Origin: Spirochaeta sp.
GTDB lineage: Bacteria > Spirochaetota > Spirochaetia > DSM-2461
Direction of reading: 5' to 3'
Length of the DNA: 12,069 bases
Assembly: GCA_030635565.1 (NCBI GenBank)
Contig: DAOVYP010000032.1
Location: 1-12,069, forward strand
A model generated the notes under the pieces. That model saw only the letters and a list, made by a program, of their open reading frames with translations. It had not been told where the DNA came from and did not search any database. Shown piece after piece: positions 1 through 4,494 of the stretch. How positions within the stretch are numbered: position 1 is the stretch's first letter; every line of letters begins with the position of its first letter. Position numbers and translations under genes: made by a program.

Positions 1-471
1 GCCGACAACGTTCTCTCCCACTACAATGGGAATGCCACAGAGGGCCGCTCCGGAAGCGAAAGAATCCCAGTATTGGCCGGCTATGAACGTCGAGCCGAGG
101 GCGCCGGTCATGATGGGCATGCGGCATTTTGTCTGGATTTCCCCGCCGAAGCTCGTCTCGATGTTGACGTTGGGAAAGATGCAGTCATCCGGGTCGTTGG
201 TGAGCCCTGTCGGCAAGCCCTTGGATCCGTAGGCATAGCCCTGGATTCGCAGGGAGTGGTATCCGACACCAATACTGACGAAATGGTTCGAGCCGGATGT
301 CGTTTTGCTGTAATCACGTGGATAGAGAAGCTTCCGCCCGACCAGGCAGGACAACCACGTCTCGCACTTCCCCTTGCAATCCGCACGGCAAAGCGTACAC
401 AACCCCGATTCGACAGGATTTCCCCGATTTATCGTTCCTAAAGCATCATTGCTTTTCGGCCAATTGAGCAT
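1..471 (-). CDS. Glutamate synthase-like FMN-binding protein, N-terminal part (cut by window edge)
   Basis: The minus strand is open from an ATG at 471 down to base 1 (157 codons) and continues outside the window. The start MLNWPKSNDALGTINRGNPV is followed by a cysteine cluster, C25-x2-C28-x3-C32-x3-C36, then LLYPRDY and PNVNIETSFGGEIQTKCRMP, MTGALGSTFIA and PIVVGENVVG. These are features of stand-alone proteins related to the FMN/glutamate synthase domain of GltB. I infer a role in glutamate or ammonium metabolism; the exact reaction of this subfamily is not settled and the FMN and Fe-S binding parts downstream are not visible. A GGGGGAT Shine-Dalgarno lies 6 nt before the ATG. It is divergent from nrpR and its promoter carries two NrpR-like inverted repeats, which supports nitrogen control. 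The four N-terminal cysteines could bind a metal or Fe-S centre (inference). Confidence 0.85.
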   Translation of the reverse strand, partial: MLNWPKSNDALGTINRGNPVESGLCTLCRADCKGKCETWLSCLVGRKLLYPRDYSKTTSGSNHFVSIGVGYHSLRIQGYAYGSKGLPTGLTNDPDDCIFPNVNIETSFGGEIQTKCRMPIMTGALGSTFIAGQYWDSFASGAALCGIPIVVGENVVG

Positions 472-483
472 TACATCCCCCTG

Positions 484-501
484 ACGGCATTTTATTGCCG
501 T
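484..501. promoter_or_regulatory. Candidate NrpR operator 1 (perfect inverted repeat)
   Basis: ACGGCA-TTTTAT-TGCCGT, with six-base arms matching perfectly around a 6-nt AT-rich centre. The core GGCA-N6-TGCC has the shape of the archaeal NrpR operators GGAA-N6-TTCC and GGTA-N6-TACC. It covers the predicted transcription start of the minus-strand gene. That NrpR binds here is inferred from the adjoining regulator gene. Confidence 0.65.
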
Positions 502-502
502 A

Positions 503-531
503 TATATGGCATTTTACTGCCGTTAAGTCAA
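503..531 (-). promoter_or_regulatory. Sigma-70-like promoter of the glutamate synthase-like gene
   Basis: Read on the minus strand there is TTGACT at 531-526, a 17-nt spacer, and CATATA at 508-503 (TATATA at 506-501 is an alternative with a longer spacer). Transcription would begin near 496, about 25 nt before the ATG at 471. The inverted repeat at 506-523 fills the spacer and the one at 484-501 covers the start point, the arrangement expected for repression. Assigned by eye. Confidence 0.6.
506..523. promoter_or_regulatory. Candidate NrpR operator 2
   Basis: GGCA-TTTTAC-TGCC core (508-521), a near copy of operator 1: 486-500 and 508-522 agree at 14 of 15 positions. Its centre lies 22 bp from that of operator 1, about two helical turns, so both sites face the same side of the DNA. 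It sits between the -35 and -10 of the minus-strand promoter. Confidence 0.6.
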
Positions 532-604: not shown

Positions 605-633
605 TTGTTAACGGCATATTTGCCGGTTATATT
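605..633 (+). promoter_or_regulatory. Sigma-70-like promoter of nrpR
   Basis: TTGTTA (605-610), a 17-nt spacer and TATATT (628-633). The start point would fall near 640, about 40 nt before the nrpR ATG. The whole spacer is occupied by the third inverted repeat, which suggests autorepression. Assigned by eye. Confidence 0.55.
612..625. promoter_or_regulatory. Candidate NrpR operator 3 (short spacer)
   Basis: CGGCA-TATT-TGCCG: the same five-base arms as operator 1 but with a 4-nt instead of 6-nt centre. It lies exactly between the -35 and -10 of the nrpR promoter. The shorter centre may mean weaker or different binding; the placement still argues for autoregulation. Confidence 0.5.
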
Positions 634-678: not shown

Positions 679-1680
679 ATGAGTCGGGAAACGAAGAGGG
701 AGTACACACGTCAATTGATACTCGGGCTTCTTGCCGAAAAGGGCATGGCCCTTGGAAGCGTGCAGATTACCGAGCTGCTGACGGATAACGGTCACAACAT
801 CAGCGAGAGAACGGTCCGGTTATACCTGAGCCAACTCGATTCCGAAGATCTCACCGTTTCACATGGGAAAAAGGGACGGCTCATCACCGACAAAGGCAGG
901 ATTGAACTCAAGAGCACCCAGCTGATGAACCGGGTGGGGTACATGTCCACGAAGATCGATACGATGACCTACCGTATGGACTTCGATCTGGCCCTCAGGA
1001 GAGGATCGGTAGTGGTGAACATGGCAATCGTCGGCCGGGAGATCCTCCTGAGCCGTCTGGGCAATATCAACCGGGTTTTCGATCAGGGTTACGCCATGGG
1101 AACCCTGGTATCCCTGCTGGAACCGGGAGAACGAATTGGAGATATTCTGGTACCCCGGGGCGCCGTCGGTTTATGCACGGTATGCTCTATTACCCTCAAC
1201 GGTGTGCTGCTCAAACACGGCATACCCACACGATCTATTTTCAGCGGCCTCCTGGAACTGGAGAATGGTGAACCGACCCGGTTCACCGAACTGATCAATT
1301 ACGACGGCACCAGTATCGACCCTTTGCTGCTGTTTATCAGCAGCCGACAGACCGACTACATGGGAGCTATCACCAACGGAAACGGTAGGATCGGCGCCGG
1401 TTTCAGAGAGATTCCGGAAGACAGTTATGATTTGGCTTTGTCACTGGCGGAGAAACTGGATGCCATCGGCCTGGGGGCCTTCCTGAAGATAGGCCGTCCC
1501 TCCCGGGACGTCTTCAACATCCCCGTGAAGGAAGGAAGCTGCGGCATCGTGGTAATCGGTGGAATGAACCCTGTGGCCATTCTGGAGGAGACAGGAGCCG
1601 AAGTGCACCATTCCGCTCTCTCCGGGCTCATGGAATTCAACAGGCTTTTTCCGTACCAGGAGTTGAAAGACAGGCTGTAA
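679..1680 (+). CDS. nrpR: NrpR-type transcriptional regulator of nitrogen assimilation
   Basis: 333 residues. Residues about 5-75 form a winged helix of the RNase R/NrpR type (QLILGLLAEKG...NISERTVRLYLSQLDSEDL...GKKGRLITDKGR). The rest matches one NrpR effector domain (DUF128), with recognisable stretches LRRGSVVVNMAIV, GTVCSITLNGVLLKHGIPTRSIFSGLLE-like sequence, and GSCGIVVIGGMNPVAILEE near the C-terminus. In methanogenic archaea NrpR represses nitrogen-fixation and assimilation genes and is released by 2-oxoglutarate; some archaeal proteins carry two effector domains, this one carries a single copy after the helix. I infer the same sensing here. The ATG at 679 has no good Shine-Dalgarno (only GGAT close by), but it begins the winged helix where expected. 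It is divergent from the glutamate synthase-like gene and shares an operator-rich promoter region with it. The stop is 7 bp from the convergent next gene. Confidence 0.88.
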   Translation: MSRETKREYTRQLILGLLAEKGMALGSVQITELLTDNGHNISERTVRLYLSQLDSEDLTVSHGKKGRLITDKGRIELKSTQLMNRVGYMSTKIDTMTYRMDFDLALRRGSVVVNMAIVGREILLSRLGNINRVFDQGYAMGTLVSLLEPGERIGDILVPRGAVGLCTVCSITLNGVLLKHGIPTRSIFSGLLELENGEPTRFTELINYDGTSIDPLLLFISSRQTDYMGAITNGNGRIGAGFREIPEDSYDLALSLAEKLDAIGLGAFLKIGRPSRDVFNIPVKEGSCGIVVIGGMNPVAILEETGAEVHHSALSGLMEFNRLFPYQELKDRL

Positions 1681-3367: not shown

Positions 3368-3504
3368 TTTCTATCTCCTTGGATGAAATCAGTTGGCTCA
3401 TATGGGCCTTTGCCGTATCAGACGCGCCGGTGGAAAGATTTCTTACGAAAAAAAACTGGATTCGAACGATCAGTCTCAACTCTAGTGAATTAATCCTGCT
3501 TTTC

Positions 3505-3513
3505 TGCTATAAC
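3505..3513 (+). promoter_or_regulatory. Possible extended -10 promoter of the sigma factor gene
   Basis: TGCTATAAC is an extended -10 (TGN-TATAAC) with no convincing -35 at 16-18 nt upstream. The ATG of the sigma gene follows only 10 nt later with no Shine-Dalgarno, so the message would be leaderless or almost so. Weak, by eye. Confidence 0.3.
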
Positions 3514-3522
3514 TCACCTGAT

Positions 3523-4173
3523 ATGACAAGGTCGTCTGAGCTTCGACCAATTCCCACCCGGCATCCTCGCAGCGACCGTGAATGGATCGAAAGCCTTGCC
3601 CCGGACCACGCCGATTTCAATTCCGCACTGACCGACCTGAGGGAATATCTCTGGAACGGAATACGCCATACATTCAAAGGTTCCGGAAAAATCGGCGAAG
3701 AGCACCTGGAGGATTTCTGCCAGGAAGCACTCATGCGGGTTCTTTCCAAACGGAACAGCTATTCCGGGAAATCCCGCTTTACCACCTGGGCTATGAAAGT
3801 TGCAGTGAATCTCGTCTTATCGGAGATCCGGAAGAAAACCTGGCAGGATGTCTCACTCGATGCTTTCGATGATACTGAACCGTTTCTTGATGCGAGCCGG
3901 GGAAACGGTCTGTTCTCACCTCAGGAGCGAAAGTTATTCCGGAAAGAAATGGCCGAACTCTGCAATAAACTGATTCAGGAATCCCTGACCGACCGCCAAC
4001 GGACAGCCCTGGTTTACCATATGAAGTACGGAATGCCGCTTGAGGAAATCGCCAGGCGGACCGGTTCAAACCGCAACAGCATCTACAAACTGCTGCATGA
4101 TGCACGAATGAAACTGAAACAGGAATTCGAGAGGAGCGGTGTCGATCGTGATGATATATCGGCACTCGCCTGA
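3523..4173 (+). CDS. ECF-type RNA polymerase sigma factor
   Basis: 216 residues from the ATG at 3523. Region 2 covers about 33-106 (EEHLEDFCQEALMRVLSKR, then SGKSRFTTWAMKVAVNLVLS, the core-binding and -10 recognition helices). A linker rich in D and F follows, and region 4 covers about 145-203 (SLTDRQRTALVYHMKYGMPLEEIARR, SNRNSIYKLLHDARMKLKQ), the helix-turn-helix for the -35. Size and two-domain order are those of group IV (ECF) sigma factors. The frame is open further upstream to a TTG at 3379, but that part has no sigma similarity and overlaps the ribosome site of the divergent gene, so I reject it. The chosen ATG lacks a Shine-Dalgarno. The next gene, 54 nt downstream, is a small zinc-finger protein, the usual anti-sigma partner. 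Confidence 0.88.
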   Translation: MTRSSELRPIPTRHPRSDREWIESLAPDHADFNSALTDLREYLWNGIRHTFKGSGKIGEEHLEDFCQEALMRVLSKRNSYSGKSRFTTWAMKVAVNLVLSEIRKKTWQDVSLDAFDDTEPFLDASRGNGLFSPQERKLFRKEMAELCNKLIQESLTDRQRTALVYHMKYGMPLEEIARRTGSNRNSIYKLLHDARMKLKQEFERSGVDRDDISALA

Positions 4174-4227
4174 GATGCTCCGTAAGAAACCCGATGGACG
4201 GCGCGTCACAGAGATGAGGATGAAGTG

Positions 4228-4494
4228 ATGAAAATGAAAACAGGAATGAAAATGCCTCTCGGAAGCAAGCACGCGAAAATACTCGTCCTCATGGCGAAAG
4301 ACAGTCGCGAAGACGAATTGGATTGCGAATCGGTAGCCGAGAACATGGATTCCTACGCCGAGTACGTCCTTAACTCGGGGGAATCAAGCCGGCTGATTCT
4401 GTTGATCGAAAACCATCTCAAACTCTGCAAAGACTGCGCGGAGGAATTCAAGCTGCTGCTCGGTGCTTTAAAAGCGTCTGAGCGACTTCTCTGA
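4228..4494 (+). CDS. Small zinc-finger protein, probable cytosolic anti-sigma factor
   Basis: 88 residues. It carries C33 and later H63-x3-C67-x2-C70 (HLKLCKDC), the HxxxCxxC signature of zinc-binding anti-sigma (zf-HC2/ZAS) domains, within ENMDSYAEYVL...LLIENHLKLCKDCAEEFKLLLGAL. No membrane helix and no C-terminal sensor domain follow, so any signal would have to act on the zinc site itself (redox or metal, as in RsrA/ChrR-like proteins) or the factor relies on another partner; this is inference. A TGAGGA ribosome site lies 7 nt before the ATG at 4228; an in-frame GTG at 4225 is the alternative. The N-terminal 30 residues are basic with many Met and Lys. It forms a pair with the upstream sigma gene, and the dehydrogenase gene begins 37 nt after its stop, so it may be co-transcribed with the sugar cassette. 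Confidence 0.75.
   Translation: MKMKTGMKMPLGSKHAKILVLMAKDSREDELDCESVAENMDSYAEYVLNSGESSRLILLIENHLKLCKDCAEEFKLLLGALKASERLL

Follow-up and report, generated by a model that had tools for sequence, protein, structure and literature searches.

GGCA palindromes with two spacer lengths as probable operators of bacterial NrpR beside genes for glutamate-forming enzymes

The 12,069-nucleotide stretch of Spirochaeta sp. DNA analysed here (the window) carries an nrpR gene (679-1680, plus strand) divergent from a gltB-like gene, with three GGCA palindromes in between. The first-pass annotation had described two of them as twin inverted repeats, and they are indeed exact: GGCA-N6-TGCC at 486-499 (GGCATTTTATTGCC) and at 508-521 (GGCATTTTACTGCC), 22 bp apart centre to centre. 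It had overlooked a third palindrome, GGCA-N4-TGCC, at 613-624 (GGCATATTTGCC). A TTGACT (531-526) and a CATATA (508-503) of the minus strand bracket the second N6 site; this promoter-like pair is absent from the list given by a consensus promoter scan of the window. The relevant features are the following.

1..471, minus strand: 5' part of the gltB-like gene, for a glutamate synthase domain protein, which runs off the edge of the window; assigned from tblastn relatives
486..499, no strand: predicted operator 1 (GGCA-N6-TGCC, a conserved class), which covers the point where transcription of the gltB-like gene is expected to begin
508..521, no strand: predicted operator 2 (GGCA-N6-TGCC), within the spacer of the promoter-like sequence, its centre 22 bp from that of operator 1
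503..531, minus strand: promoter-like TTGACT - 17 bp - CATATA of the gltB-like gene, from sequence; weak -10
613..624, no strand: predicted operator 3, GGCA-N4-TGCC, inside the nrpR-side promoter-like spacer, 104 bp from operator 2
605..633, plus strand: promoter-like TTGTTA - 17 bp - TATATT on the nrpR side, a consensus match only
679..1680, plus strand: nrpR, winged helix plus one NRD domain (Pfam, AlphaFold2 model, Foldseek)

Such an arrangement is rare in shuffled DNA. Of 100,000 first-order Markov shuffles of the region 472-678, 0.27% had at least one N4 or N6 site and not one had two N6 sites; any half-site with at least three G/C, occurring twice with an equal spacer, was found in 0.22% of 5,000 shuffles of the same region. 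The 157-residue piece of the gltB-like protein has no Pfam match, and a longer relative (in L094) matches Glu_synthase (PF01645, 56.5 bits); tblastn relatives of the gene are divergent from nrpR in 30 loci, the window included. The draft genome to which the window belongs (2.97 Mb in 589 contigs, 78% complete) has a second nrpR gene (L024), with GGCAAGTACCTGCC 52 bp upstream.

The protein encoded at 679-1680 has the NRD domain (NRD1_2, PF01995, 264 bits against a cut-off of 25) and an N-terminal winged helix (HTH_12, 45.5 bits) according to Pfam. Its AlphaFold2 model (mean pLDDT 91.8) places helices at residues 3-21, 27-36 and 43-55 and strands at 59-61 and 67-69, the recognition helix being at about 43-55 and the NRD domain at 86-323. 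Foldseek aligns this model with 3nek, the nitrogen repressor-like protein MJ0159 (TM 0.90-0.92 by target length, E 5e-20); the two have the NRD fold in common, but the identity is 23-24% and the match spans the NRD part only. Among the seven named nrpR relatives the closest is that of a Treponema MAG (62%), with which the genomes of the window genome's class cluster in the protein tree. Next to nrpR lies a gene for a membrane protein with DOMON and cytochrome b561-like domains (1688-2551, Pfam). Further along are a Sigma-70 family sigma factor gene with regions 2 and 4 (3379-4173) and then a small gene with no Pfam match (4225-4494), perhaps its partner.

In archaea the NrpR operator is GGAA-N6-TTCC in Methanococcus maripaludis (PMC2723118) and GGTA-N6-TACC for NrpRI of Methanosarcina mazei (PMC3177094), the archaeal regulon comprises nif, glnA, glnK-amtB and transporters (PMC2723118), members of the family repress and are relieved by 2-oxoglutarate (PMC11957540), and NrpR has been recorded in "certain Bacteria" (PMC2723118). 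The proposal that the palindrome of the window differs from both archaeal operators in its third base pair only is borne out. With the M. maripaludis system the bacterial one shares an NRD-domain repressor family, an N6 inverted repeat and tandem operators; it differs in having C rather than A at the third pair, N4 and N5 spacers as well, a single NRD domain, no visible amtB control and, as the targets seen, glutamate synthase and glutamate dehydrogenase rather than nif, glnA, glnK-amtB and transporters. A 2005 paper reportedly describes two operators at nif for the M. maripaludis protein. NrpRI of M. mazei is a DNA-binding subunit with a winged helix and one NRD domain, as in the NrpR of the window; its operator has the same frame as the bacterial site and another third base pair. 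Among the matches listed in a search of the open-licence literature, we found no description of a bacterial NrpR operator. Earlier NrpR work was done in methanogens; for the bacterial relatives the present comparison adds a motif, candidate target genes and a mechanism that can be put to the test.

The nrpR loci compared come from named genomes (7 loci) and from whole-genome searches, which found nrpR in 18 of 26 genomes in the window's order, 14 of 392 in its phylum, 86 of 240 in the class to which G418 (a Pontiella genome) belongs and 65 of 297 in the phylum to which G415 (a "Deltaproteobacteria" MAG) belongs. The two last searches contributed their best 30 matches only, so this first set is skewed to closer relatives. 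After the removal of 11 duplicates or fragments and of one locus with less than 150 bp upstream, 91 upstream regions of at most 300 bp were searched for all 256 four-letter half-sites at spacers of 0-10. The most frequent palindrome was GGCA-N4-TGCC (47 of 91 regions), followed by GGCA-N6-TGCC (42 of 91); GGCA at other spacers occurred in 0-2 regions, and the archaeal types GGAA-N6 and GGTA-N6 in three and one. In 40 Markov shuffles the two GGCA classes averaged 0.45 and 0.25, and any palindrome reached at most 11; the 91 regions are not independent, because related genomes are among them. In a tree of 80 NrpR proteins, site-bearing loci fall in most groups, the named rows with both spacers or N6 belonging to Spirochaetota, Myxococcota, Thermodesulfobacteriota and Pseudomonadota, and the site remains with nrpR where the neighbour switches between a gltB-like gene and gdhA. 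The suggested tie between GGCA-N6-TGCC and nrpR is thus upheld across phyla by the 91 upstream regions, the 60 divergent loci described below and the tree, and sites were found at about ninety loci altogether.

An exact N4 or N6 site was absent from 25 of the 91 loci, among them that of the Planctomycetota (L021) and those in which nrpR adjoins NifA-like genes (L052 and L055). The neighbour in L052 is a NifA-like sigma-54 activator (GAF and Sigma54_activat), and that in L055 is the same by resemblance. In a genome of the window's genus, two pieces of a first-type nrpR lie beside a gltB-like gene (L042 and L044, G023:C126); we read them as fragments only.

The two spacers are not interchangeable in their placement. 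At 60 loci the divergent partner of nrpR is either a gltB-like gene (30) or gdhA (30), the gdhA of L016 matching the NADP-specific glutamate dehydrogenase model NF006929 at 776 bits (cut-off 536). In these loci 52 of 54 N6 sites are enzyme-proximal and 52 of 57 N4 sites nrpR-proximal. Strictly within the 60 intergenic regions the exact sites number 55 for N4, 54 for N6, one for N5 and one for N0, with zero at other spacers up to N12. Seven related gdhA genes with no exact N6 (L020, L062, L063, L065, L067, L071 and L072) have a one-mismatch N6 starting 27-29 bp from the gene start; none was seen within 110 bp of the gdhA genes of L079, L083, L084 and L089. Both classes are flanked by C or T before GGCA and mainly A/T after it, and the half-site is therefore the same. 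How one protein distinguishes 4 bp from 6 bp is a question that this spacer rule raises.

Tandem sites of the same class also keep a regular distance. Neighbours less than 60 bp apart (n=13; some tandem loci are related, and seven longer distances of 77-295 bp are excluded) are separated by 17, 22 (four), 23, 31, 32 (two) or 42 bp (four). Twelve of the 13 thus come close to whole helical turns (22-23, 31-32 or 42 bp), in 12 loci that include the window; its 22-bp N6 tandem recurs in L095, L096 and L117. These distances fit proteins bound side by side on one face of the DNA.

We think it highly probable, with some reserve, that the three palindromes are operators through which the NrpR of 679-1680 represses the enzyme promoter and from which it is released by 2-oxoglutarate. 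In the scheme that we infer, an NrpR dimer would bind WNYGGCAAT-like half-sites through its winged helix; the two N6 sites, on the same helix face, would keep it on the gltB-like promoter and block it, and the N4 site about 105 bp away would keep it on the nrpR side, so that NrpR would control its own gene and a loop might form. A rise in 2-oxoglutarate would then make NrpR release the DNA and the enzyme would be made, a local substrate-induced switch. 2-Oxoglutarate is a substrate of both glutamate synthase and glutamate dehydrogenase. Substrate-induced derepression appears the best mechanism because the sites overlap promoter-like sequences, because archaeal NrpR represses and is released by 2-oxoglutarate, and because this compound is the substrate of the enzymes concerned. 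The direct repression that the first-pass annotation proposed agrees with the promoter-like placement, which is that of a repressor site; repression itself we infer from sequence. That the bacterial NrpR has an operator with its own specificity and at least two spacers (N5 being a third, in one clade) seems very likely on the sequences compared.

The sites might instead be those of a different regulator of glutamate synthesis, found beside nrpR by coincidence. Since the enzyme and nrpR share one intergenic region at all 60 divergent loci, linkage alone cannot separate NrpR from such a regulator. The second-type nrpR genes of the spirochaete family have neither a gltB-like gene nor gdhA as neighbour, yet seven of 17 such loci carry N6, and never N4, upstream. 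The full-length gltBD operon was looked at in 10 of the 18 nrpR genomes of the window's order: all eight readable second-type nrpR genomes (G002, G005, G015, G019, G021, G022, G024 and G025; the contigs of G000 and G023 do not reach the start) have N6 there, starting 31-73 bp before gltB. N6 was found at gltBD in none of 12 genomes that lack nrpR, of which two are from the same family, and in none of eight genomes with other nrpR types. Four further gltB loci, in which the start was not located, are left out of these counts, and "without nrpR" means no match in the genome searches of the order, the phylum, the class of G418 and the phylum of G415. In G002 nrpR lies about 1 Mb from gltB, and in G005 the two are on different contigs; both have N6 at gltBD, while their nrpR genes have no exact site. 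In genomes without nrpR, gdhA has the site in only one of 19 cases, about 340 bp before the start. Comparison of the sequences shows site, spacer and nrpR to be linked, with N6 at gltBD away from nrpR, and we regard the other regulator as unlikely.

Were NrpR to act as an activator from N6 or N4, several second-type nrpR sites would be suitably placed, upstream of a TTGACA-like -35, the usual place for an activator. In the window, on the other hand, one site lies within the promoter spacer, and 44 of 51 enzyme-side N6 centres lie at or past the best predicted start, a figure confounded by the TTGCC of the sites themselves. Predicted promoters are consensus guesses with the same confounding, and the promoter profile around the sites is unusable because their TTGCC scores as a -35. 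Archaeal NrpR is moreover a repressor (PMC2723118, PMC11957540), and we give activation little credence. We give still less to RNA stem-loops (attenuators or terminators), which would be very improbable even though the window scan marks the N4 palindrome as terminator-like: no other half-site of the same geometry substitutes for GGCA, as compensatory change would allow, the flanking letters are conserved as well, and one window site is inside a promoter spacer.

A variant of the repressor reading is that N4 serves not for autoregulation but as the other arm of a loop by which the enzyme promoter is repressed. In 32 of 35 loci the closest N6 and N4 sites stand 75-150 bp apart (median 115), as they do in 14 of the 17 whose intergenic region measures 250 bp or more; a single uniformly placed N4 would give 4.9 of 17, with a maximum of 13 in 20,000 trials, although the choice of the nearest pair somewhat favours short distances. 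N4 stands at much more variable distances from the nrpR start (standard deviation 95, against 41 for N6-N4). Lac/Gal type repressors, an unrelated protein family, have two operators about 90-115 bp apart; what they have in common with the sites described here is a pair of operators with conserved spacing that spans a promoter region, looping being hypothetical here. The N6-N4 distances show little helical phasing (p 0.29 when each distinct distance is counted once; p 0.02-0.03 on 19 cluster representatives chosen by hand), and a fixed distance between two divergent promoters, which fits the data as a loop does, would yield an equal pattern. We therefore treat the loop arm as an appreciable possibility, somewhat below an even chance.

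How far would the NrpR operator extend beyond these promoters? The annotation had proposed control of ammonium and glutamate genes. Sites are present at gltB-like genes, gdhA and gltBD, but the ammonium transporters lack the site as a class: it stands upstream of 3 of the 43 read in nrpR genomes and 1 of the 27 read in genomes that lack nrpR (70 of 94 places covered, one of the 27 readable over only 21 bp), and the glnK-amtB control known for archaeal NrpR was not seen there. The gdhA genes away from first-type nrpR in nrpR genomes have the site in none of 11, three of which (L192, L214 and L218) adjoin another nrpR copy; in G710 gdhA is divergent from such a copy (L192) and has no site. The gdhA control counts cover 30 of 70 places, and N5 was likewise absent from them.

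The genome pattern GGCAWNNNNWTGCC, strict enough that some true sites escape it, matches 4 times in G015, 12 in G002, 14 in G219 and 24 in G501 (a subset of the last was examined; in the other three, flanking genes were examined only for sites near a gene start). The four in G015 are at nrpR, at gltBD, inside a gene and in an intergenic region, 39 bp before a transporter permease gene. The sole clear promoter site among the 12 in G002 is that of gltBD; 13 of the 14 in G219 are within genes and the remaining one is the nrpR-gdhA site. A scan for GGCAWW-N0-2-WWTGCC covered mainly G667, whose nrpR locus is outside the set, and 12 loci from four other genomes; among the matches listed, 27 of 30 N4, 15 of 17 N5 and 9 of 10 N6 sites were well inside reading frames, the gene calls being longest-ORF guesses. 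In the window's genome the N6 pattern occurs 53 times, against 47 for a reversed-pattern control, and most single N6 sites per genome are therefore due to chance; the control is unlike the real pattern in CpG content and was not our main test. A broad ammonium regulon is thus not supported by the transporters, by the distant gdhA genes without the site or by the other sites, which in the genomes scanned are mostly inside genes. The regulon seemingly is very small and made up of glutamate-forming enzymes, and NrpR may here be a nitrogen repressor that has shrunk to switching these enzymes locally.

Some loci bend the spacer rule. Forty more upstream regions of low-identity nrpR genes were taken, 20 from the class of G418 and 20 from the phylum of G415. 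The former have N4 in 16 (12 of them adjoining gdhA), but only two have an exact N6 no further than about 1 kb away; the latter have N4 in nine and N5 in nine. Three of the nine N5 sites (L390, L391 and L397) lie within gdhA or at its end, and the other six are upstream of nrpR (L381, L386, L389, L392, L393 and L394), five with N4 nearer nrpR. In eight loci with gdhA and then a low-identity nrpR in the same direction (L383, L384, L387, L388, L390, L391, L396 and L397), no GGCA site was found in the 350 bp before gdhA. A glutamine-dependent NAD synthetase gene is divergent from nrpR in L381 (544-2244), L386 (497-2218), L389 (357-2237), all three by Pfam, and L385 (by tblastn), the flanks being included in this observation. 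N5 is on the enzyme side in three of these four loci and N4 nrpR-proximal in three, L385 having N4 on both sides; N4 and N6 are therefore not the whole rule. NrpR may possibly be tied to NAD synthesis there. A strict rule of even spacers fits the 60 intergenic regions, with N5 once, and is broken by the NAD synthetase sites. On present sequences, spacing tracks promoter and clade, and the rule is incomplete.

One tentative generalization, which we would sooner doubt than adopt, is that a single repressor family uses the same half-site in registers chosen by the promoter, the spacer encoding the hold, with an N6-N4 loop of about 115 bp. If so, the registers would be N6 for gltB-like genes, gdhA and gltBD, N5 for NAD synthetase in one clade and N4 for the nrpR side, and the spacer would set the strength, or the 2-oxoglutarate state, of the hold on each promoter. 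Finally, a gltB-like gene in L119 has next to it a GGTAATCAATTGCC pair in tandem at a distance of 22 bp, with one half-site of the Methanosarcina type (GGTA) and one of the bacterial type; judged by its letters, it is a possible bridge between the GGTA and GGCA operator types.
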